Positions 34,539-64,000 of a DNA stretch of 64,000 nt are shown here, piece after piece. The notes below the pieces were generated by a model. The model was given only the letters and a program-made list of their open reading frames with translations, had not been told where the DNA came from and searched no databases. Both the position numbers and the translations under genes were made by a program. The first letter of the stretch is position 1, and each line of letters opens with the position of its first letter. Origin of the DNA: Bradyrhizobium sp. NFR13 (lineage in GTDB: Bacteria > Pseudomonadota > Alphaproteobacteria > Rhizobiales > Xanthobacteraceae); contig NZ_FOTP01000001.1 of assembly GCF_900114605.1 (NCBI RefSeq), positions 868,001 to 932,000 of the forward strand. The letters are read 5' to 3'.

Positions 34539-34639
34539 CCCTCCCCCCTTGCGGGGGAGGGTTAGGGAGAGGGGTAGCCGCAAACGCCGGAGCCTGAGGT
34601 TACCCCTCTCCCCGGCCCTCCCCCGCAAGGGGGGAGGGA
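34539..34639. repeat. C/G-tract palindromic repeat, copy 1 (intergenic)
   Basis: Begins CTCCCCCCTTGCGGGGGAGG (34541-34560) and ends with the mirrored CCCTCCCCCGCAAGGGGGGA (34617-34636); the arms are each near-palindromic and together an inverted repeat. It lies 15 bases after the fadJ-like stop. The same element occurs at 55418-55533, there inside a gene. Confidence 0.85.
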
Positions 34640-52294: not shown

Positions 52295-52987
52295 CTAGCA
52301 GCAGCGCGACGCAGCGATCGCGTGCATGCGCCGGTCGCCAAGCACATGGGCGACGAATCCGAGGGTCTGGAAGATTTTCGCGAAGGCCGCGTCGCGGATG
52401 TTGAGGCCGCCAGTATAGGCGCCGAAAGCCGGCATCACCGCGCGGGTGCCGTCGCTGGCAAAACAACGACGTTCGACGGCGCGCCCCCGGGTGCTGACAC
52501 GCGCCTTTGGATGCAGGTGACCGGCAATCTCGCCTGCAGCACCTGTCGGCTCATGGCGGAAGGTGACCGGGCCGATGGCGACCTCGTCTGCGACGGTGCC
52601 ACCGAGATCTGGCGGCAGCGCGGGATCGTGATTGCCTGATATCCAGATCCAGTCGCGACGCATCTGCAATGCGGACAGCACCTCGCGATTGGCCGGCGAC
52701 AACCGCTCATGGGCGTCACGATCGTGGAAACTGTCGCCGAGCGCAATCACGATACGCGGATCGTGACGCGCGATTGCCGCACCGAGGCGACCGAGCGTGG
52801 CGATCGTATCGTAGGGCGGGAGCAGCACGCCGCGATTGGCATAGCTCGAGCCCTTTTCGAGATGCAGGTCGGACACGACGAGAAGTTTCTGCTCTTCCCA
52901 ATACAAGGCGCCCGACAGGTCCGCAGCCAGCGTGACGCCGGCGATGCTGACGGTGCTCATATCGACGGTGATGGTCTCAGCGTGCAT
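52295..52987 (-). CDS. pdeM: ligase-associated DNA damage response endonuclease PdeM
   Basis: 230 aa calcineurin-like metallophosphoesterase. Metal motifs: VVSDLHLEKG, GDSFHD, SGNHDP and GHLHPK, in the order of the TIGR04123 family. It is one of four proteins usually encoded together (helicase, this phosphoesterase, MBL exonuclease and ATP ligase) in a DNA-repair cassette. Here it lies 38 bases downstream of the helicase gene. An alternative start at 52960 is possible. Confidence 0.92.
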   Translation of the reverse strand: MHAETITVDMSTVSIAGVTLAADLSGALYWEEQKLLVVSDLHLEKGSSYANRGVLLPPYDTIATLGRLGAAIARHDPRIVIALGDSFHDRDAHERLSPANREVLSALQMRRDWIWISGNHDPALPPDLGGTVADEVAIGPVTFRHEPTGAAGEIAGHLHPKARVSTRGRAVERRCFASDGTRAVMPAFGAYTGGLNIRDAAFAKIFQTLGFVAHVLGDRRMHAIAASRCC

Positions 52988-53025: not shown

Positions 53026-55761
53026 TTACGATCCTGTCTCTTGGAATCCCGCCGCCTCTTTCACGAGTTCCTCGGCAGCTTCCGCCAGGAGCTCGTCCGA
53101 TGCCTCGCCGTATACCGCTTCACGGCCGATTTCCAGCATCACCGGCACCGCAAGCGGCGAGACGCGATCGAGTTCCCGGTGAACAATACGGCCCTGGATG
53201 CGCGTCAGCATGTCGCTCAATCGCCGAATGTCCAGCAATCCCGTCGCCGCATCGGCTCGCGCGGCACGCAGCAGCACATGATCGGGCTGATGCTTGCGCA
53301 ACACGTCGTAGATCAGGTCCGTGGAGAACAGCACCTGACGGCGCGACTTCTCCTCGCCGGTGAAACGCGTGTGGATCAGCCCCGAGATCACCGCGCAAGT
53401 GCGGAATGTCCGCTTCATCAGCGCCGATTCCGCGAGCCAGGCTTCAAGATCGTCGCCGAGCATGTCGGGGTCGAACAAAGCGGCGAGATCGAGCCTGCCC
53501 TGCCGGATCATGTGGGACGTGTCACCGAGGCCCCATATGGCCAGCGCATATTCGTTGGCGACAAAACCCAGCGGCCGCGCGCGGGCGCGTTCAAGACGGC
53601 GTGTCAGCAGCATACCCAGCGTCTGATGCGCGAGGCGGCCTTCGAACGGATAGCAGACGAGGTAATACTTGTCGGCGCGCGGAAAAGTCTCGACCATCAG
53701 CTCGCGGGTGCCCGGCACGTGCGAGACGTGGGCCTGCAGCGACAGCCACTCGCGGACCTGGTCGGGCAGCCCCTTCCAGGCGCGTTGATCGTCCAGCAAT
53801 TTGCGCACGCGTTCGGCGAGATAGGTCGAGAGCGGAAACTTGCCACCCATATAGGACGGCACTTTCGCGTCCTTGTCATGCGCGCGCGAGACATAGACCT
53901 GGTCCTCGACCAGGGATCCATAGCGCACGACTTCCCCGGCAAAGACAAAGGTGTCGCCGACCACAAGGCCTTCGATGAAATATTCTTCGATCTGGCCGAG
54001 CATGCGCCCGCCGCGCGCCAGCCCACCAGTGACACCCTTCTTGCTTTTTCCGCTGCCTCCGCGCACCAGCCGCACCTTCAGCATCGTATCCTCGACGATG
54101 GTGCCGACATTCATGCGATACATCTGGCGCACCTTTGGATTGGTGACGCGCCACTTGCCCGAGGTGTCCTGCTTGATGCGGGCAAAACGTTCGTAGATTT
54201 TCAGCGCGTAGCCGCCGGACGCCACGAACTCCACGGTATCGTCGAAATCGACACGCGACAGTTCGGCATAAGGCGCCGCCGAGCGCACTTCGTCATAGAG
54301 ATCGTCCGCGCGAAACGGTGCGCCGCAGGCGCAGCCAAGTACATGCTGCGCCAGCACATCGAGCGAGCCAGTTCGCAACGGCGGCGTGTCCTGTGCATTT
54401 TCGGCAACAGCATCGATGGCGACGCGGCATTCCAGCACCTCGAAACGATTGGCCGGAACCAGTACAGCGCGCGAAGCTTCATCGATGCGGTGATTGGCGC
54501 GGCCGATCCGCTGCATCAGCCGCGAAGCGCCCTTGGGCGCGCCGACGTTGATGACGAGATCGACATCGCCCCAGTCGACGCCGAGATCGAGCGACGAGGT
54601 ACAAACCACACCTCGTAGTTTCCCGGCCGACATCGCGTCCTCGACCTTGCGGCGCTGCGCGACGTCGAGGGAGCCATGATGAAGCGCGATGGCGAGGCCA
54701 TCGTCATTCATGCGCCAGAGATCCTGGAACAGCATCTCGGCCTGGCTGCGGGTGTTGACGAAGACCAGCGTCGTTTTGTTGGCCTTGATGAGATCGTAGA
54801 TTTCGCCAAGCGCATGGCGCGCGGAGTGGCCGGCCCAGGGCAAGCGTTCCTTGGTGTCGAGCATCTCGACCACCGGCTCGGCTGCGCCGCCGGCGACGAC
54901 GATATCGGCAGAGACGCGCGCGCCGACGGGCTGCGGCACCAGGAAACGCGCCAGCGAGTCAGGCTCGGCCACCGTCGCCGACAGGCCGATGGCCCGCATG
55001 TCAGGCGCCAGCTTCCACAGCCGCGCGAGCCCGAGCGACAGCAGATCGCCACGCTTCGACGTCACCAGCGCATGCAACTCGTCGAGCACGACGCGCTTGA
55101 GTGACGAAAATAGAAACGGCGCATCGTCGGACGACAGCAGCAAGGCCAATTGTTCCGGCGTGGTCAGAAGAATATCCGGCGGATAGCGCCGCTGCCGCGC
55201 GCGGCGCGACACCGGCGTGTCGCCGGTGCGTGTCTCGACCTTGATCGGGAGCTGCATCTCCGCGATCGGCGTTTCCAGATTGCGCGCGATGTCGACGGCG
55301 AGGGCTTTGAGCGGGGAAATGTAGAGCGTGTGCAGGCCACCGGTGCGTTGAACGGCGCGGCCGGTGGAGACCAGCTTGCTTGGCGCAGTCCCAGCGAGCG
55401 CAGGTGCTGCTTTCGTACCTCCCCCCTTGCGGGGGAGGTCGGCAGCCGCGGGCTGCCCGGAGGGGGGTATCGCAGGTAGGACAACGCTTGTGGGCCCCCC
55501 TCCCCGGCCCTCCCCCGCAAGGGGGGAGAGAGAAGGCACCGCAGCGTTTTTGTTGCCACTCAGTTCCGCCAGCGTCGGCAGGAATCCGGCCAGCGTCTTG
55601 CCGGCACCGGTCGGCGCGATCAGCAGCGCCGAGCGATCGTCGCGCGCCTTCTCCAACAGCGCCAACTGATGCGCACGCGGCGACCAGCCGCGCGTGGCGA
55701 ACCAGCGCAGGAAGTGATCAGGCAGCAGGTCGGGTTTGGCGACGGATTTACGAGGCGGCAC
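53026..55761 (-). CDS. ligase-associated DNA damage response DEXH helicase (Lhr-like) with in-frame repeat insertion
   Basis: 911 aa. Walker A APTGAGKTLAGFLPTL (about 49-63), DEXH box VVLDELHALV, motif SAT in LSATVAEPDS, and the C-terminal motif VI around QRIGRANHR; a winged domain and a C-terminal Lhr region follow. It is the TIGR04121 type, which unwinds DNA for the linked nucleases and ligase. Between motif I and motif Ia, residues about 77-115 (GGGPTSVVLPAIPPSGQP and neighbours) are encoded by an intergenic-type palindromic repeat. The frame stays open throughout. Confidence 0.93.
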   Translation of the reverse strand: MPPRKSVAKPDLLPDHFLRWFATRGWSPRAHQLALLEKARDDRSALLIAPTGAGKTLAGFLPTLAELSGNKNAAVPSLSPLAGEGRGGGPTSVVLPAIPPSGQPAAADLPRKGGGTKAAPALAGTAPSKLVSTGRAVQRTGGLHTLYISPLKALAVDIARNLETPIAEMQLPIKVETRTGDTPVSRRARQRRYPPDILLTTPEQLALLLSSDDAPFLFSSLKRVVLDELHALVTSKRGDLLSLGLARLWKLAPDMRAIGLSATVAEPDSLARFLVPQPVGARVSADIVVAGGAAEPVVEMLDTKERLPWAGHSARHALGEIYDLIKANKTTLVFVNTRSQAEMLFQDLWRMNDDGLAIALHHGSLDVAQRRKVEDAMSAGKLRGVVCTSSLDLGVDWGDVDLVINVGAPKGASRLMQRIGRANHRIDEASRAVLVPANRFEVLECRVAIDAVAENAQDTPPLRTGSLDVLAQHVLGCACGAPFRADDLYDEVRSAAPYAELSRVDFDDTVEFVASGGYALKIYERFARIKQDTSGKWRVTNPKVRQMYRMNVGTIVEDTMLKVRLVRGGSGKSKKGVTGGLARGGRMLGQIEEYFIEGLVVGDTFVFAGEVVRYGSLVEDQVYVSRAHDKDAKVPSYMGGKFPLSTYLAERVRKLLDDQRAWKGLPDQVREWLSLQAHVSHVPGTRELMVETFPRADKYYLVCYPFEGRLAHQTLGMLLTRRLERARARPLGFVANEYALAIWGLGDTSHMIRQGRLDLAALFDPDMLGDDLEAWLAESALMKRTFRTCAVISGLIHTRFTGEEKSRRQVLFSTDLIYDVLRKHQPDHVLLRAARADAATGLLDIRRLSDMLTRIQGRIVHRELDRVSPLAVPVMLEIGREAVYGEASDELLAEAAEELVKEAAGFQETGS
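55418..55533. repeat. C/G-tract palindromic repeat, copy 2 (inside the helicase gene)
   Basis: CCTCCCCCCTTGCGGGGGAGG-like arm at the left and CCCTCCCCCGCAAGGGGGGA at 55509-55528 on the right: the same element as at 34539-34639, about 116 bases, lying in frame in the helicase gene. The middle parts of the two copies differ. Confidence 0.9.
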
Positions 55762-55785: not shown

Positions 55786-55844
55786 CGTCATTGCGAGGCT
55801 AGGAAAGCTGGCTTGCCGGCTTTCCCGGGCTCGTAATGACAGCG
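55786..55844. repeat. nested palindromic repeat between helicase and ABC protein genes
   Basis: Outer arms CGTCATTGCGAG (55786-55797) and CTCGTAATGAC (55830-55840) pair with one mismatch; an inner pair GGAAAGC / GCTTTCC (55802-55808, 55819-55825) forms a second stem. A different family from the C/G-tract element. Confidence 0.8.
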
Positions 55845-57077: not shown

Positions 57078-57423
57078 CTGGCGTTTTCTCCCCGAAACCC
57101 GCTGTGCGGGTGTGTTTTTATGACCCGCCGCCGCGTTGATCGCGGCTGTGCGGGCTTGCCCATATCCTCTGCGGACACGGCAGGGTTGGCAATCCCCAGC
57201 GGGTTGCGACGTGTTTTCCGTGGGTTGGGCGATTGACGGGTCGCGAGCGCCAGGAAACGTGACGTAACACGCATCCGGGCAACGGTACCTAAACGCTTAT
57301 TTAACCGGCTTTTTCCGACCGAACTCTCTGCGGTTGCAATGTCAGACAGTGTGGCCGCGCGGATACAGCCAATATGGCCCGACTCCCCTATCCTACCGGT
57401 TCAAATCTGAATTGGGGTCGACC
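57078..57423. other. 346-base divergent region before the first outer-membrane gene
   Basis: No gene seen. It holds the ABC-protein promoter on one strand and the OMP promoter on the other. At 57356-57368 is CGCGCGGATACAG, which recurs at the same distance (56 bases) from the ATG of the second OMP gene. I see a TTAACCGG-containing AT-rich stretch near 57300 but no clear -35/-10 pair. Confidence 0.5.
57356..57368 (+). promoter_or_regulatory. conserved promoter block of OMP gene 1
   Basis: CGCGCGGATACAG, ending 56 bases before the ATG. The near-identical CGCGCGGCTACAG is equally placed before the next gene. Confidence 0.5.
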
Positions 57424-58797
57424 ATGAAACGTATTCTTCTTGCGAGCGCCGCGCTGCTCGGAACCGCTGTGAGCGCGCAGGCTGCCGATCTGGCCGTCAA
57501 GGCCCCTTATTACAAGGCGCCGATCGTCGCCGTCTACAACTGGACCGGCTTCTACATCGGCGTGAACGCCGGCGTCGGCATTGGCCGCGACCGCACCACC
57601 CACAGCCTCAACAACGACTCGCTCTATATCTCGCCGCAGGGCGGATTCGGCGGCGGCCAGATCGGCTACAACTGGCAGGCCGACTCGCTGCTCGGCCCGA
57701 TCGTTTACGGCCTCGAAGCCGACATCCAGGGCTCAGGCCTCACGGGCGGTGGCGCCTTCGTGTCCCCGGGCGTGGCCTATGGCCAGAAGTCGGATTGGTT
57801 CGGCACTGTGCGCGGCCGCGTCGGCCTCGCGACCGGTCCGGTCCTCAGCTATTTCACCGGCGGTTTCGCTTACGGCAACATCAAGAGCACGATCACCGAA
57901 GGCGGCGTGACGGCGTTCTCGGAGAACCGCACTGCAACGGGCTGGACCATCGGCAGCGGCGTCGAAGCAGCGCTGGGCGGCAACTGGACCGGCAAGATCG
58001 AATATCTCTATCTGAACCTCGGCAACAAGACGAACGCCTTCGGCGCGCCGTTCGCTGGCCAGTTCACCAACAACGAAATCCGCGAAAACCTCTTCCGTGT
58101 CGGCCTGAACTACCGCATCGGCGGCAACAGCGTTTACACCCCGGTGGCTGCGGCAAACTGGACCGGCTGGTATCTCGGCGGCAACGTCGGTTCCGGCACC
58201 GGCCGCAACGCGACCACGCTCGGCGCGCCGGGCTTCACTCCGGAACAGTTCAGCCTGAACCCGGATGGCATCAATGGTGGTGGTCAGATCGGCTACAACT
58301 GGCAGTCGACCAACTGGGTGTACGGTCTTGAGACCGATATCCAGGCGTCAAGCCAGCGCGATAACAAGACCGTGGTTGTTCTCGGCTCCGCCGCTTATGA
58401 TCAGAAGCTGCCCTGGTTCGGCACAGTTCGTGGCCGTCTCGGCTACTCGGTTGGTTCGAGCCTGTTCTACGTCACTGGCGGTTATGCTTATGGCGGCGTG
58501 AAGACCAAGATCAGCTCTGCTGGTGTCGAACTCGCCAACTTCTCGACCACCAAGAGCGGCTGGACTGCAGGTGCCGGCATCGAGACCCCGTTCAAGCTGC
58601 TCGGCCTCTTCGGACCGAACTGGACCTCGAAGACCGAATATCTTTACGTGGATCTCGGCTCGACATCAGGTTCGTTCCCTGTCGTCCTCGCCGGCGCTGG
58701 TGCTACGACGCTTACCTCCAGCAGCAAGGTCACCGAGCACATCTTCCGCACCGGCCTGAACTATCACTTCAACAGCCCGGTCGTTGCGAAGTACTGA
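57424..58797 (+). CDS. double-barrel outer-membrane protein (Omp31/OmpA-like), copy 1
   Basis: 457 aa. Signal peptide ends SAQAAD. Two homologous halves follow (about 30-235 and 240-457), each with the Omp31-type pattern NWTGFYIGVNAG, GQIGYNWQ, VYGLEADIQ, WFGTVRGRVG, TGGFAYGN, GVEAALGGNW, YLYLNLG and FRVGLNY, ending in aromatic-rich HFNSPVVAKY. Single barrels of the family are about 220 aa; this is a fusion of two, hence 16 strands or two barrels. Its closest match in the window is the next gene. Confidence 0.93.
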   Translation: MKRILLASAALLGTAVSAQAADLAVKAPYYKAPIVAVYNWTGFYIGVNAGVGIGRDRTTHSLNNDSLYISPQGGFGGGQIGYNWQADSLLGPIVYGLEADIQGSGLTGGGAFVSPGVAYGQKSDWFGTVRGRVGLATGPVLSYFTGGFAYGNIKSTITEGGVTAFSENRTATGWTIGSGVEAALGGNWTGKIEYLYLNLGNKTNAFGAPFAGQFTNNEIRENLFRVGLNYRIGGNSVYTPVAAANWTGWYLGGNVGSGTGRNATTLGAPGFTPEQFSLNPDGINGGGQIGYNWQSTNWVYGLETDIQASSQRDNKTVVVLGSAAYDQKLPWFGTVRGRLGYSVGSSLFYVTGGYAYGGVKTKISSAGVELANFSTTKSGWTAGAGIETPFKLLGLFGPNWTSKTEYLYVDLGSTSGSFPVVLAGAGATTLTSSSKVTEHIFRTGLNYHFNSPVVAKY

Positions 58798-59006: not shown

Positions 59007-60389
59007 ATGAAAACCCTTCGCCTTACCGCCGCGGCACTGCTCGCTCTGACCGCCGGTGCGCAAGCCGCCGACATGGCCGCGAAGGCCCCCTACTACAAGG
59101 TGCCAGTAACAGCGGTTTATGACTGGACCGGCTTCTACATGGGCGTGAATGTCGGCATCGGGCTCGGACGGGATCGCGCTATTCACAACAACCCGGTACT
59201 GGGCGCCGATTCGCTCTTCCTGTCGCCACAGGGCGGCATCGGCGGCGGCCAGATCGGTTACAACTGGCAGGCCAACTCGCCGCTCGGTGCGATCGTCTAT
59301 GGCGTCGAAGCCGACATCCAGGGTGCCGGCCTGAGCGATGGCCGCACCAATGTCGGCGGCCCGCTCCTTTCGACCACTTACGATCAGAAGATCGACTGGT
59401 TCGGCACCGTTCGCGGACGCGTCGGCCTCGCCACCGGCCCCGTGCTCAGCTACGTCACCGGCGGCTACGCTTACGGTAACGTCAAGACCAGCATCACCGA
59501 AGCCGGCCTCGGCACGGTGTTTTCGAGCAACAAAATGCAGGACGGCTGGGTCATCGGCAGCGGCGTTGAAGCTGCGCTAGGTGGCAACTGGACCGGCAAG
59601 ATCGAGTATCTCTACCTAAACATGGGCAACAAGGGTTATGCGTTCGGCCCCTTCGCCCAGACGCTCGATACCGAAGTGCGCGAGAACATCTTTCGCGTGG
59701 GCTTGAATTACCGCGTCGGTGGCAACAACAGCACCACACCCGTCGTTGCGGCAGACTGGACCGGCTGGTATCTCGGCGGCAATGTCGGCTCCGGCACCGG
59801 GCGCAATCGCAGCAGCATCGTCAAGCCCGCCGACCTGTTGGCCGGAGATCCCGGCGCGAACGAGATCTTCAACCTCGCTCCCGATGGCATCAATGGCGGC
59901 CTGCAGCTCGGCTACAACTGGCAGATGTCGAACTGGGTCTACGGCCTCGAAACCGATATTCAGGCATCCAGCCAGCGCGACAACAAGACCGTCGTTGGCT
60001 TTGGGACGGTCCCATATGATGTCAAGCAGCCCTGGTTCGGCACCGTTCGCGGACGGCTCGGTTATTCGGTCGGCTCGACGCTGTTTTATGCCACGGGCGG
60101 TTACGCTTACGGGGGCGTGAAGACCAAGATCGCCGAAGGCGGCGACCTGGTGCTCAACACTTCGACAACCTTGAGCGGCTGGACCGCGGGTGCAGGCATT
60201 GAAACCCCGTTCAAGCTGCTCGGCCTGTTCGGGCCGAACTGGACTTCGAAGACCGAGTATCTCTATATCGACCTCGGCTCGACCTCGAACATCGTGAACA
60301 CCACGATCGTCACGACCAACGTCACCGAGCACATCTTCCGCACCGGCCTGAACTATCACTTCAACAGCCCGGTCGTTGCGAAGTACTGA
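59007..60389 (+). CDS. double-barrel outer-membrane protein (Omp31/OmpA-like), copy 2
   Basis: 460 aa, same layout as the preceding gene: signal peptide ending GAQAAD, two Omp31-type halves (NWTGFYMGVNVG and NWTGWYLGGNVG units) and the identical C-terminus HFNSPVVAKY. The second half is closer between the two genes than the first half is. It is a tandem paralogue, with 86 bases identical at the 3' end (60321-60406 against 58729-58814). Probably a porin-like surface protein; substrate unknown. Confidence 0.93.
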   Translation: MKTLRLTAAALLALTAGAQAADMAAKAPYYKVPVTAVYDWTGFYMGVNVGIGLGRDRAIHNNPVLGADSLFLSPQGGIGGGQIGYNWQANSPLGAIVYGVEADIQGAGLSDGRTNVGGPLLSTTYDQKIDWFGTVRGRVGLATGPVLSYVTGGYAYGNVKTSITEAGLGTVFSSNKMQDGWVIGSGVEAALGGNWTGKIEYLYLNMGNKGYAFGPFAQTLDTEVRENIFRVGLNYRVGGNNSTTPVVAADWTGWYLGGNVGSGTGRNRSSIVKPADLLAGDPGANEIFNLAPDGINGGLQLGYNWQMSNWVYGLETDIQASSQRDNKTVVGFGTVPYDVKQPWFGTVRGRLGYSVGSTLFYATGGYAYGGVKTKIAEGGDLVLNTSTTLSGWTAGAGIETPFKLLGLFGPNWTSKTEYLYIDLGSTSNIVNTTIVTTNVTEHIFRTGLNYHFNSPVVAKY

Positions 60390-61456: not shown

Positions 61457-62497
61457 ATGCGTCCTCAAGACATCCTCATGTCCGCCCCTGCCGGCCTCTG
61501 CTGCAAACCGGGCGGCTTTCATATCGATCCGGTCAGGCCGGTGGATCGCGCGCTTATCACGCACGGCCATTCCGATCACGCCCGCCCCGGTCACGGCCGT
61601 GTGCTGGCGACGCAGGAAACCCTCGACATGATGCGGCTACGCTATGGCGACAATTTCGCCGGCAGCACGCAGGCCATTGCCTACGGCGAAACGGTCAGGC
61701 TCGGCGACGTCACCGTGTCCTGCCATCCCGCCGGCCATGTGCTGGGATCGGCGCAGATGGCGGTGACCTGCAAGGATATCTGCATCGTCGCCTCTGGCGA
61801 CTACAAGGACGCGCATGATCCGACCTGCACGCCGTTCGAGGTCGTGCCCTGCGATGTGTTCATTACCGAAGCGACGTTCGGGCTTCCGGTGTTTCGTCAC
61901 GGTGATGCCGCCAACGAGGTGAAGAAGCTGCTGGCTTCCGTCGCGCTGTTTCCGGAGCGCGCGCATCTGGTCGGCGCCTATTCGCTGGGAAAGGCGCAGC
62001 GGGTCATCAAGCTGATCCGTCAGGCCGGTTATGATGCGCCGATCTATCTGCATGGCGCGATGGAGACGATCACACACTACTATCAGAGCCGCGGCATCGA
62101 TCTCGGTGACTTGCGCCCGGTGAAAGGCGTCAGGAAAGCCGATCTCGCCGGCACCATCACGCTGGCGCCACCCTCGGCCACGTCGGATGTGTGGACGCGG
62201 CGCTTTCCCGATCCCGTCACCGCCTTCGCATCCGGCTGGATGCGCGTGCGCGCCCGTGCACGGCAACGCGGCGTCGAGCTGCCGCTGGTGGTTTCCGATC
62301 ATGCCGACTGGGACGGCCTCTGCGCCACCATCGGCGCAACCGGCGCCGGCGAAATCTGGGTCACCCATGGCCAGGAAGACGCGCTGGTGCATTGGTGCCA
62401 GAGCAAGGGCCTGACCGCGCGGCCTCTTGCGTTGGTCGGCTATGGCGACGAGGAGGAAGAGGAAACTCTGCCGCCCGGCGAAAGCGCCGACGCATGA
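61457..62497 (+). CDS. ligase-associated DNA damage response exonuclease (MBL fold)
   Basis: 346 aa, metallo-beta-lactamase/beta-CASP type nuclease of the TIGR04122 group. Active-site HGHSDH (36-41, HxHxDH), CHPAGHVLGSAQM, VASGDYKDAHD, and DHADWDG in the C-terminal region. It should process DNA ends for the linked ligase. It is the third cassette member; the stop overlaps the ligase start as ATGA. MRPQDIL start fits the family. Confidence 0.93.
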   Translation: MRPQDILMSAPAGLCCKPGGFHIDPVRPVDRALITHGHSDHARPGHGRVLATQETLDMMRLRYGDNFAGSTQAIAYGETVRLGDVTVSCHPAGHVLGSAQMAVTCKDICIVASGDYKDAHDPTCTPFEVVPCDVFITEATFGLPVFRHGDAANEVKKLLASVALFPERAHLVGAYSLGKAQRVIKLIRQAGYDAPIYLHGAMETITHYYQSRGIDLGDLRPVKGVRKADLAGTITLAPPSATSDVWTRRFPDPVTAFASGWMRVRARARQRGVELPLVVSDHADWDGLCATIGATGAGEIWVTHGQEDALVHWCQSKGLTARPLALVGYGDEEEEETLPPGESADA

Positions 62498-64000
62498 ACC
62501 GCTTCGCCGAACTGCTCGATCGCCTGGCCTACGAGCCCGGCCGTAACAACAAGCTGCGACTGATCACGGGTTATTTTCGCGAAGTGCCGGATCCCGACCG
62601 TGGCTACGCGCTGGCGGCTCTGACAGGTGCGCTGTCGTTCAAGCATGCGAAAGCCGGATTGATCCGCGACCTCATCGCATCGCGCACCGACCCGGTGCTG
62701 TTTGAGCTTTCATACGATTATGTCGGCGATCTCTCGGAAACGGTCGCGCTGATGTGGCCGAAGTCTCCGGACATCGCGCATAACAATCCGCCCCCGCCGA
62801 CGCTCACCGAAGTGGTCACCACCCTCCGCACGCTCGGTAAGTCCGAGCTCCCCGCGCAATTGATGCGCTGGCTCGATGAACTCGACGAGACCGGGCGCTG
62901 GGCACTGCTGAAGCTCGTCACCGGCGCGATGCGGATTGGCGTTTCGGCGCGGCTGGCCAAGACCGCCGCCGCGGCGCTCGGCGACAAGGATCCGCATGAC
63001 GTCGAGCTGGTCTGGCCCGGCCTTGCGTCGCCCTATGGCGAATTGTTCGCCTGGCTCGAAGGTCGCGCGGAGAAGCCGGTCAATCGCGATCCGGCGCCGT
63101 TCCGCCCGGTGATGCTGGCACATGCCGTCGAAGATTCCGACTTCGCCAATCTCGACGCGTCCGATTTCGTCGCGGAGTGGAAATGGGATGGCATCCGGAT
63201 TCAGGCGGTCAGCGGCAAAGGCGATGACGACAGGATCGTCACGCGGCTCTATTCGCGCACCGGCGAGGACATCACCGGAAGCTTTCCGGACCTGACGCCA
63301 TCGCTGCGGCTGCCCGGCGCGATCGATGGCGAGTTGCTGGTGCTGCGCGAAGGTCGCGTGCAGTCATTCAACGTGCTGCAACAACGGCTCAACCGGAAGA
63401 GCGTGACGCCGAAGCTGATGAAGGAATATCCCATTCATCTGCGCGCCTATGATTTGCTCAGCGATGGCGAGACGGATTTGCGCGAACTGCCATTCGAACA
63501 GCGACGAACCAAACTGGAAAGATTCATCGCGGAGCTCGACGACGACAGGATCGATCTGTCCGACCAGATCCCGTTCGCAACATGGGATGCCCTCACCGCC
63601 GCGCGTGCCGATCCTGTCAGTGCCGGAGCCGGCGAAGATGCCGATGCCGTCGAAGGCGTGATGCTGAAGCGGCGCGATTCCGCCTATCTCCCGGGACGAC
63701 CGAAAGGCCAGTGGTGGAAATGGAAGCGCGACCCGCACATCATCGACGCCGTGCTGATGTATGCGCAACGCGGCCACGGCAAGCGCTCGTCCTATTATTC
63801 GGATTACACCTTCGGCGTCTGGACCGCAGGCGAGAGCGGCGATCAGCTGGTGCCGGTCGGCAAAGCCTATTTCGGCTTCACCGACGAGGAGCTGCTGCAA
63901 ATCGATCGCTTCGTCCGCCGCAACACCACCGAGAAGTTCGGCCCGGTCCGCCACGTCACCCACGAACCCGACAAGGGGCTGGTGCTGGAAGTCGCCTTTG
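62494..64000 (+). CDS. ATP-dependent DNA ligase (cut by the window end)
   Basis: 502 residues are visible and the frame is open at base 64000. Adenylation motif I EWKWDGIRIQA, with Lys230 as the AMP-binding lysine, is preceded by an N-terminal DNA-binding domain (LLDRLAYEPGRNNKLRLITGYF) and followed by IDGELLVL and VEGVMLKRRDSAYLPGRPKGQWWKWKRD (motifs IIIa-V). It is the ligase of the TIGR04120 group, about 540-560 aa in full, sealing nicks with ATP. Cotranslated with the exonuclease. Completes the four-part repair set. Confidence 0.93.
   Translation, partial: MNRFAELLDRLAYEPGRNNKLRLITGYFREVPDPDRGYALAALTGALSFKHAKAGLIRDLIASRTDPVLFELSYDYVGDLSETVALMWPKSPDIAHNNPPPPTLTEVVTTLRTLGKSELPAQLMRWLDELDETGRWALLKLVTGAMRIGVSARLAKTAAAALGDKDPHDVELVWPGLASPYGELFAWLEGRAEKPVNRDPAPFRPVMLAHAVEDSDFANLDASDFVAEWKWDGIRIQAVSGKGDDDRIVTRLYSRTGEDITGSFPDLTPSLRLPGAIDGELLVLREGRVQSFNVLQQRLNRKSVTPKLMKEYPIHLRAYDLLSDGETDLRELPFEQRRTKLERFIAELDDDRIDLSDQIPFATWDALTAARADPVSAGAGEDADAVEGVMLKRRDSAYLPGRPKGQWWKWKRDPHIIDAVLMYAQRGHGKRSSYYSDYTFGVWTAGESGDQLVPVGKAYFGFTDEELLQIDRFVRRNTTEKFGPVRHVTHEPDKGLVLEVAF

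Follow-up and report, generated by a model that had tools for sequence, protein, structure and literature searches.

Composite palindromic repeats are known from the intergenic regions of the Hyphomicrobiales, where the Rhizobium intergenic mosaic elements (RIME) and Bru-RS are examples, and the element described below resembles these, by description only, in being a composite palindrome. Another example has been described in Rickettsia, where the Rickettsia palindromic elements (RPE-1 and others) are dispersed palindromes that lie in frame in protein genes and are tolerated there. Many RPE copies are coding (PMC10969869), and RPEs have also been reported in uvrB and dnaE of R. conorii (PMC3733652; PMC10969869). 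RPE-4 and RPE-6 belong to the CGTC and GTAG superfamilies, and the CGTC REP superfamily is described as including both (PMC3733652).

Among the GTAG/CGTC REPs, intragenic copies have been recorded in the genes for DNA polymerase I, a DNA ligase and RNA helicases, and in uvrA and uvrB, while recB of X. campestris and X. oryzae carries different REPs at about one site (PMC3733652). In this work, it was pointed out that in-gene REPs often lie in replication and repair genes; coincidence was doubted, the question was left open, and a tuning of repair and mutation was speculated upon (Di Nocera et al., 2013; PMC3733652). Whether palindromic repeats in repair genes reflect accident or purpose has thus been debated since 2013. 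In Bradyrhizobium japonicum, which is of the same bacterial family as the strain studied here, Br-REP1 and Br-REP2 are likewise abundant intergenic palindromes; their printed consensus, however, is not one of C/G-tract hairpins, and the term in-frame is absent from that paper (PMC5082802). The in-gene REPs and the recB case make clear that this kind of event is known, and in-frame repeat insertion itself is not new. What is new here is the repeated colonisation of the same site, together with the set of host genes. The word Lhr is absent from the main text of PMC3733652; in the open-access literature, which leaves most subscription papers outside, no description of the element or its in-gene inserts was found, and its arm sequence was met in unrelated occurrences only.

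The locus lies in a 64,000-nucleotide stretch of Bradyrhizobium sp. NFR13 DNA (the window), where a palindromic repeat sits within the frame of an Lhr-like helicase gene. This is a real and well-supported in-frame insertion, and one case among the repeated entries of such elements into a small number of repair and helicase proteins in this bacterial group. The features concerned are as follows.

34539-34638, strand not given: intergenic copy of the element, between convergent genes
52295-52987, minus strand: ligase-associated endonuclease PdeM (TIGR04123), adjoining the helicase gene
53026-55761, minus strand: ligase-associated DEXH-box helicase (TIGR04121, Lhr-like), 911 aa, GTG start
55342-55554, minus strand: predicted disordered loop, helicase residues 70-140, containing the element, pLDDT about 30
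55417-55532, minus strand: palindromic element within the helicase frame, 116 nt, two short C/G hairpins around an inner inverted repeat
61457-62497, plus strand: ligase-associated exonuclease (TIGR04122)
62494-64000, plus strand: partner ATP-dependent DNA ligase (TIGR04120), truncated by the window end, linker VALMWPKSPDIAHNNPPPP

The helicase scores 1103.8 bits against TIGR04121 (curated cut-off 850), and its three partner genes (TIGR04120, TIGR04122 and TIGR04123) are all present near it in the window. By fold, the PDB entry that it resembles most closely is Lhr (5v9x), in which about 6 residues separate the aligned blocks where the insert loop sits. The loop lies between the motif I helix and the strand preceding motif Ia, and its pLDDT of about 30, against a mean of 65.1 for the whole AlphaFold model (31 sequences, a shallow alignment), predicts disorder, in agreement with the loop placement proposed in an earlier note on this DNA. 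The gene is under strong purifying selection, as core dN/dS is 0.02-0.11 over 12 pairs, among them a single pair of empty genes at 0.042, and reaches 0.02-0.23 over the short N-terminal segment that precedes the insert. The description of the helicase as essential-looking is not supported, since in 10 of the 61 genomes searched (G031, G032, G039, G042, G044, G047, G050, G052, G056 and G058) the matches are weak only, with best E values from 1.7e-5 to 2.3e-11. As a separate observation, the helicase matches at G005:C1:980112-982462 divide into two stretches that overlap and meet near residue 570, which suggests a frame change there.

The helicase frame reads across the element without a stop. 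The element is reversed, its TCGGC-followed arm standing at the 3' end in the gene sense, and its best common block with the intergenic copy is 38 nt at 95% identity, accompanied by cross-complementary arms, so that the recurrence of an intergenic repeat in the helicase frame, as first noticed, is upheld. The gene-strand copy folds strongly (z = -5.7 as DNA and -5.4 as RNA, equalled by 0 of 200 shuffles), and the intergenic copy matches 12 distinct places in its own genome at E <=1e-4, the window's two included; because of these matches and the folding, the match inside the helicase is not a chance one. The element is probably non-autonomous, multi-copy and palindromic. A search of the genome for copies inside genes, which the earlier note had proposed, placed one of 11 distinct places inside a gene by codon-usage score, namely the helicase (the window's intergenic copy standing outside this set). 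When frames spanning eight other own-genome copies were scanned with Pfam, five had no domain and three had a single domain fully downstream of the copy (BPD_transp_2; AMP-binding; MurB with its FAD domain). A named Rfam family for the element was rejected, as the window gave 0 matches at gathering score. The idea that the element is specially open for translation was also rejected: in 85 copies a mean of 2.64 of the 6 frames is open, matching dinucleotide shuffles (2.64), against 3.10 for random 130-nt windows.

The element is like an RPE in being a dispersed palindrome that is tolerated in frame, and, judged from sequence, its open frame together with the low dN/dS of the host would agree with the RPE pattern of in-frame insertion into a gene under selection. 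The likeness drawn in the earlier note stands to that extent; it does not extend to a single insertion, as the site has been filled many times, nor to the CGTC and GTAG end tags, which most copies lack. In 26 two-arm copies of the Tardiphaga genome G017, CGTC lies within 8 nt before the element in 1 and GACG after it in 0, while GTAG precedes 0 and CTAC follows 3; in the window's intergenic copy, CGTC stands directly before the arm. Inverted ends are present in the same G017 copies, and exact flank duplication is 0 nt in 23 of 26 and 1 nt in 3 of 26, the element ends being ill-defined. With most copies untagged, the element is likened to an RPE in how it works and is not classed as one. It further differs from the GTAG/CGTC REPs in having two hairpins within about 100-150 nt, and its recurrence spans dozens of species, unlike that described for intragenic REPs (PMC3733652). 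In contrast to RPEs, here set apart by description, the helicase linker is one site refilled by different elements.

This refilling is seen when relatives are compared. The helicase was searched in 61 genomes and in named genomes (best 80 of 210), and the segment running from motif I up to the strand that precedes motif Ia was read, giving 109 readable loci, of which 102 are distinct and 100 have both motifs. Element-derived sequence is present in 41 of these 100 linkers (labels partly by eye), comprising 31 full copies, 2 A-type half copies, 5 single hairpins and 3 possible remnants; the other 59 are short or without a recognised element. The sister genome G002, whose helicase is 96% identical, has a linker without the element, of 114 nt against 267 nt in the window. 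The estimate of 39 added residues fits the element itself; the whole linker is 51 aa longer than that of G002. The frame is kept in 98 of the 100 linkers, the exceptions being L130, which contains a run of N, and G016, and with the low dN/dS this bears out the view of a tolerated in-frame copy between motifs I and Ia. In the G016 locus (L047), the C tract is one base short and the frame is broken in an otherwise conserved gene, where homopolymer slippage might switch the gene, or a sequencing error might be the cause. In an alignment of 98 proteins (without G016 and L130), extra segments of at least 40 aa occur solely at the linker and near residue 282. At this second site, L111 and L112 carry 43 aa in frame that match family C, and remnants of such an insert are seen in L086 and L141. 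In the hypervariable helicase linker, neither a target-site duplication nor a clean empty site was found, a point against the reading of recurrent insertion given below.

The linker inserts fall into several families, which together show both orientations and all three reading phases. Family A (the window, G001, G007, G016 and G017) is in phase 1 and reversed wherever the marker is visible (3 of 5), family B (G009, G011, G006, G022 and Rhodopseudomonas rhenobacensis) is forward in phase 2, as is family D of Bradyrhizobium, family E (Bradyrhizobium and a MAG) is forward in phase 0, and family C is a different palindrome. Phases were taken from hairpin positions, with which an automatic count disagrees for L044, L052 and L114; the forward marker that this count gives for L045, which is one contig with L074, was taken as a chance match. 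Five labelled inserts fold weakly (L049, L070, L120, L133 and L136, z -0.5 to -1.9, from 40 simple letter shuffles each). On a tree built from the DNA of the gene core, the labels require at least 33 changes; presence or absence alone requires 25, falling to 23 when single hairpins and remnants are scored as lacking the element. The tree is a quick one, with support below 80 on 32 of 97 inner branches. Two T. robiniae strains, whose cores are 97% and 98% identical to the query, carry elements that differ from each other. Empty linkers are found in G010, G012 and G013 despite 8, 5 and 5 element matches in their genomes, so that the supply of elements alone is not decisive; the empty G002 has a single match.

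From these comparisons, it seems quite probable that the locus reflects repeated and for the most part neutral insertion into permissive loops, with translation running through the insert. A copy of a multi-copy palindromic element would have entered the helicase at a disordered loop that tolerates insertion, moved presumably by a transposase or by repair, and would now be translated as part of the protein. The loop would act as a recurrent landing pad that accepts different elements in either orientation and any phase, and the insertions that survive would be in frame and free of stops because of the strong purifying selection on the helicase. The intergenic site at 34.5 kb was compared in 10 genomes with both flanks besides the window's own. 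The element is absent in G002, related or other palindromic elements stand there in G001, G009, G016, G017 and G010, and a repeat of another kind is found in G011, G007 and G014. Serial occupation of one place by different repeats is thus also a property of ordinary intergenic sites, and the helicase loop acts like intergenic DNA that happens to be translated.

Several other readings of the linker were weighed. It has been considered that close relatives might share the extra residues as a conserved, non-repeat helicase domain misread as a repeat, for which no point in favour was found; seven genomes (G002, G003, G008, G010, G012, G013 and G014) have a short linker, the insert DNA matches dispersed copies, and the best-matching TIGR04121 stretch of the window helicase begins only at residue 130. 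This reading is hardly credible, and a conserved extra domain was rejected on the empty relatives. A pseudogene or an assembly artefact, which the unkept frames of G016 and L130 would suit, is very improbable, given the 98 linkers that remain in frame, the low dN/dS of the sequence flanking the insert on either side and the recognisably common, diverged insert of G000 and G016. A further possibility, rather unlikely as a full account, is that true insertions were few and that the variety arose by allele exchange and by gene conversion involving a resident element and copies elsewhere. By eye, L045 and L049 seem to combine sequence from more than one element family, close Bradyrhizobium switch between D and empty alleles, and the 34.5-kb intergenic spot likewise holds different elements across species; some label changes, above all those between D and empty in Bradyrhizobium, may indeed reflect allele exchange. 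Orientation and phase, however, vary by family, which conversion of one resident copy would not readily give, and empty linkers are interspersed, so that the number of events can drop, though hardly to one.

The element is rarely met in genes, and similar inserts, which the earlier note does not mention, have been found in a small number of other genes. In 1.6 Mb (28%) of the G017 genome, 94 element places were scored, and 4 score in frame inside genes: DNA polymerase I (PolA, 0.31), the ligase (0.26), the helicase (0.25) and HrpB (0.15), the next score being 0.06, on a codon-usage measure trained on the same DNA. The blocks were picked in the knowledge that the helicase, PolA and HrpB lay within them, the ligase case not being foreknown; the informative result is that no further gene stood out in 1.6 Mb, although the score misses some cases. 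The other 90 of the 94 places were not scored in genes, which differs from the many coding copies of Rickettsia (PMC10969869). Three G017 frames (4654811, 4950887 and 4960416) that passed on base composition were rejected, their codon-usage scores being 0.03, -0.06 and -0.13, and look antisense-like.

Among 40 listed copies from four self-chosen genomes (19 in G017, 9 in G009, 8 in G001 and 4 in G022), the helicase itself excluded, 7 lie in frame within genes: HrpB in three genomes (examined in G001, G009 and G017), DNA polymerase I in three and the TIGR04120 ligase in one. Over 198 places in 164 loci (some places doubled), every score of at least 0.12 belongs to the helicase, ligase, PolA, HrpB or UvrB, with L239 at 0.10 and L226 at 0.08. 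The score misses some true cases, such as the L312 ligase, which is absent from the scores listed and was found by reading frames and named as TIGR04120. The ligase linker could be read in 22 of 30 loci, where, by eye, elements are present in G022 and G017, a half copy in G013 and a remnant in G012, the remaining read loci, that of the window genome included, being empty; that of Bradyrhizobium dw_411 holds two elements. The PolA linker, read in 15 of 30 loci, has elements by eye in G017, G003, G001, G022, G007, G015, G004 and G005, a remnant in G014 and none in the window genome; the G017 insert falls between the 5'-3' and 3'-5' exonuclease domains (Pfam boundaries, G017 only). A UvrB at L307:3-1916, from the genome of L081, carries an in-frame family C element in an N-terminal extension, at about residues 90-140, with the matched core starting at residue 241; it scores 668.7 bits over 397 residues, a value that misses the cut-off of 743 since the gene is cut short by the end of the locus. 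The tolerant linkers of these further hosts (ligase, DNA polymerase I, HrpB and UvrB) would act as the helicase loop does.

All five host genes encode nucleic-acid enzymes, which plain neutrality does not predict. If 5% of genes are assumed to be nucleic-acid genes, five of five would be expected by chance about 3 times in 10 million, a rough figure that is biased by peptide queries favouring copies that resemble those already seen; the helicase and ligase are neighbours, as are PolA and HrpB, leaving perhaps three independent neighbourhoods, for which three of three is expected roughly 1 time in 10,000. An adaptive or second-order selection, in which elements are retained in repair enzymes since they alter the protein or its expression and so tune repair and mutation, would account for this bias, which appeared although the coding scores ignored gene function and which is equally known for other repeats in other bacteria (PMC3733652). 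The very stable hairpin of the coding mRNA (-87.9 kcal/mol as RNA for the coding strand) would also fit. Against this, core dN/dS is similarly low in insert-bearing pairs and in the sole empty pair, the insert sequences are wholly different, sisters are without an insert, and no phenotype of the inserts is on record, so that such selection seems quite doubtful. The fuller version is a shade more doubtful still: that repeats are kept since insertion alters the action or amount of the enzyme, tuning mutation or the repair of palindromic DNA, with the loops as an evolvable control site reached independently by different repeats in several bacterial lineages.

Under recurrent, mostly neutral insertion, the locus is a clear example of repeat DNA repeatedly supplying new protein segments at a single place, and the repair-gene bias recurs here in a repeat most of whose copies bear neither of the superfamily tags described in PMC3733652. 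One gene gives dozens of natural versions, empty or variously filled and in either orientation, and close pairs, such as the two T. robiniae strains, whose elements differ, and the empty G002, open the question to test through a comparison of insert-bearing and insert-free enzymes.

Other repeats are found around the helicase gene. A CGTC-type REP-like palindrome (CGTCATTGCGAGG ... CTCGTAATGAC; likeness by eye) stands at 55786-55840, just 5' of the helicase start, and in many Bradyrhizobium loci element-like palindromes recur directly before the gene, upstream of the mask placed over the helicase linker at a distance of about 310-460 nt. Further along the window, 57334-58797 and 59007-60389 form a tandem duplicate of two similar genes whose aligned blocks are 75-87% identical; an NCBIfam search gave no match for them, and each is followed by a near-identical, terminator-like inverted repeat.
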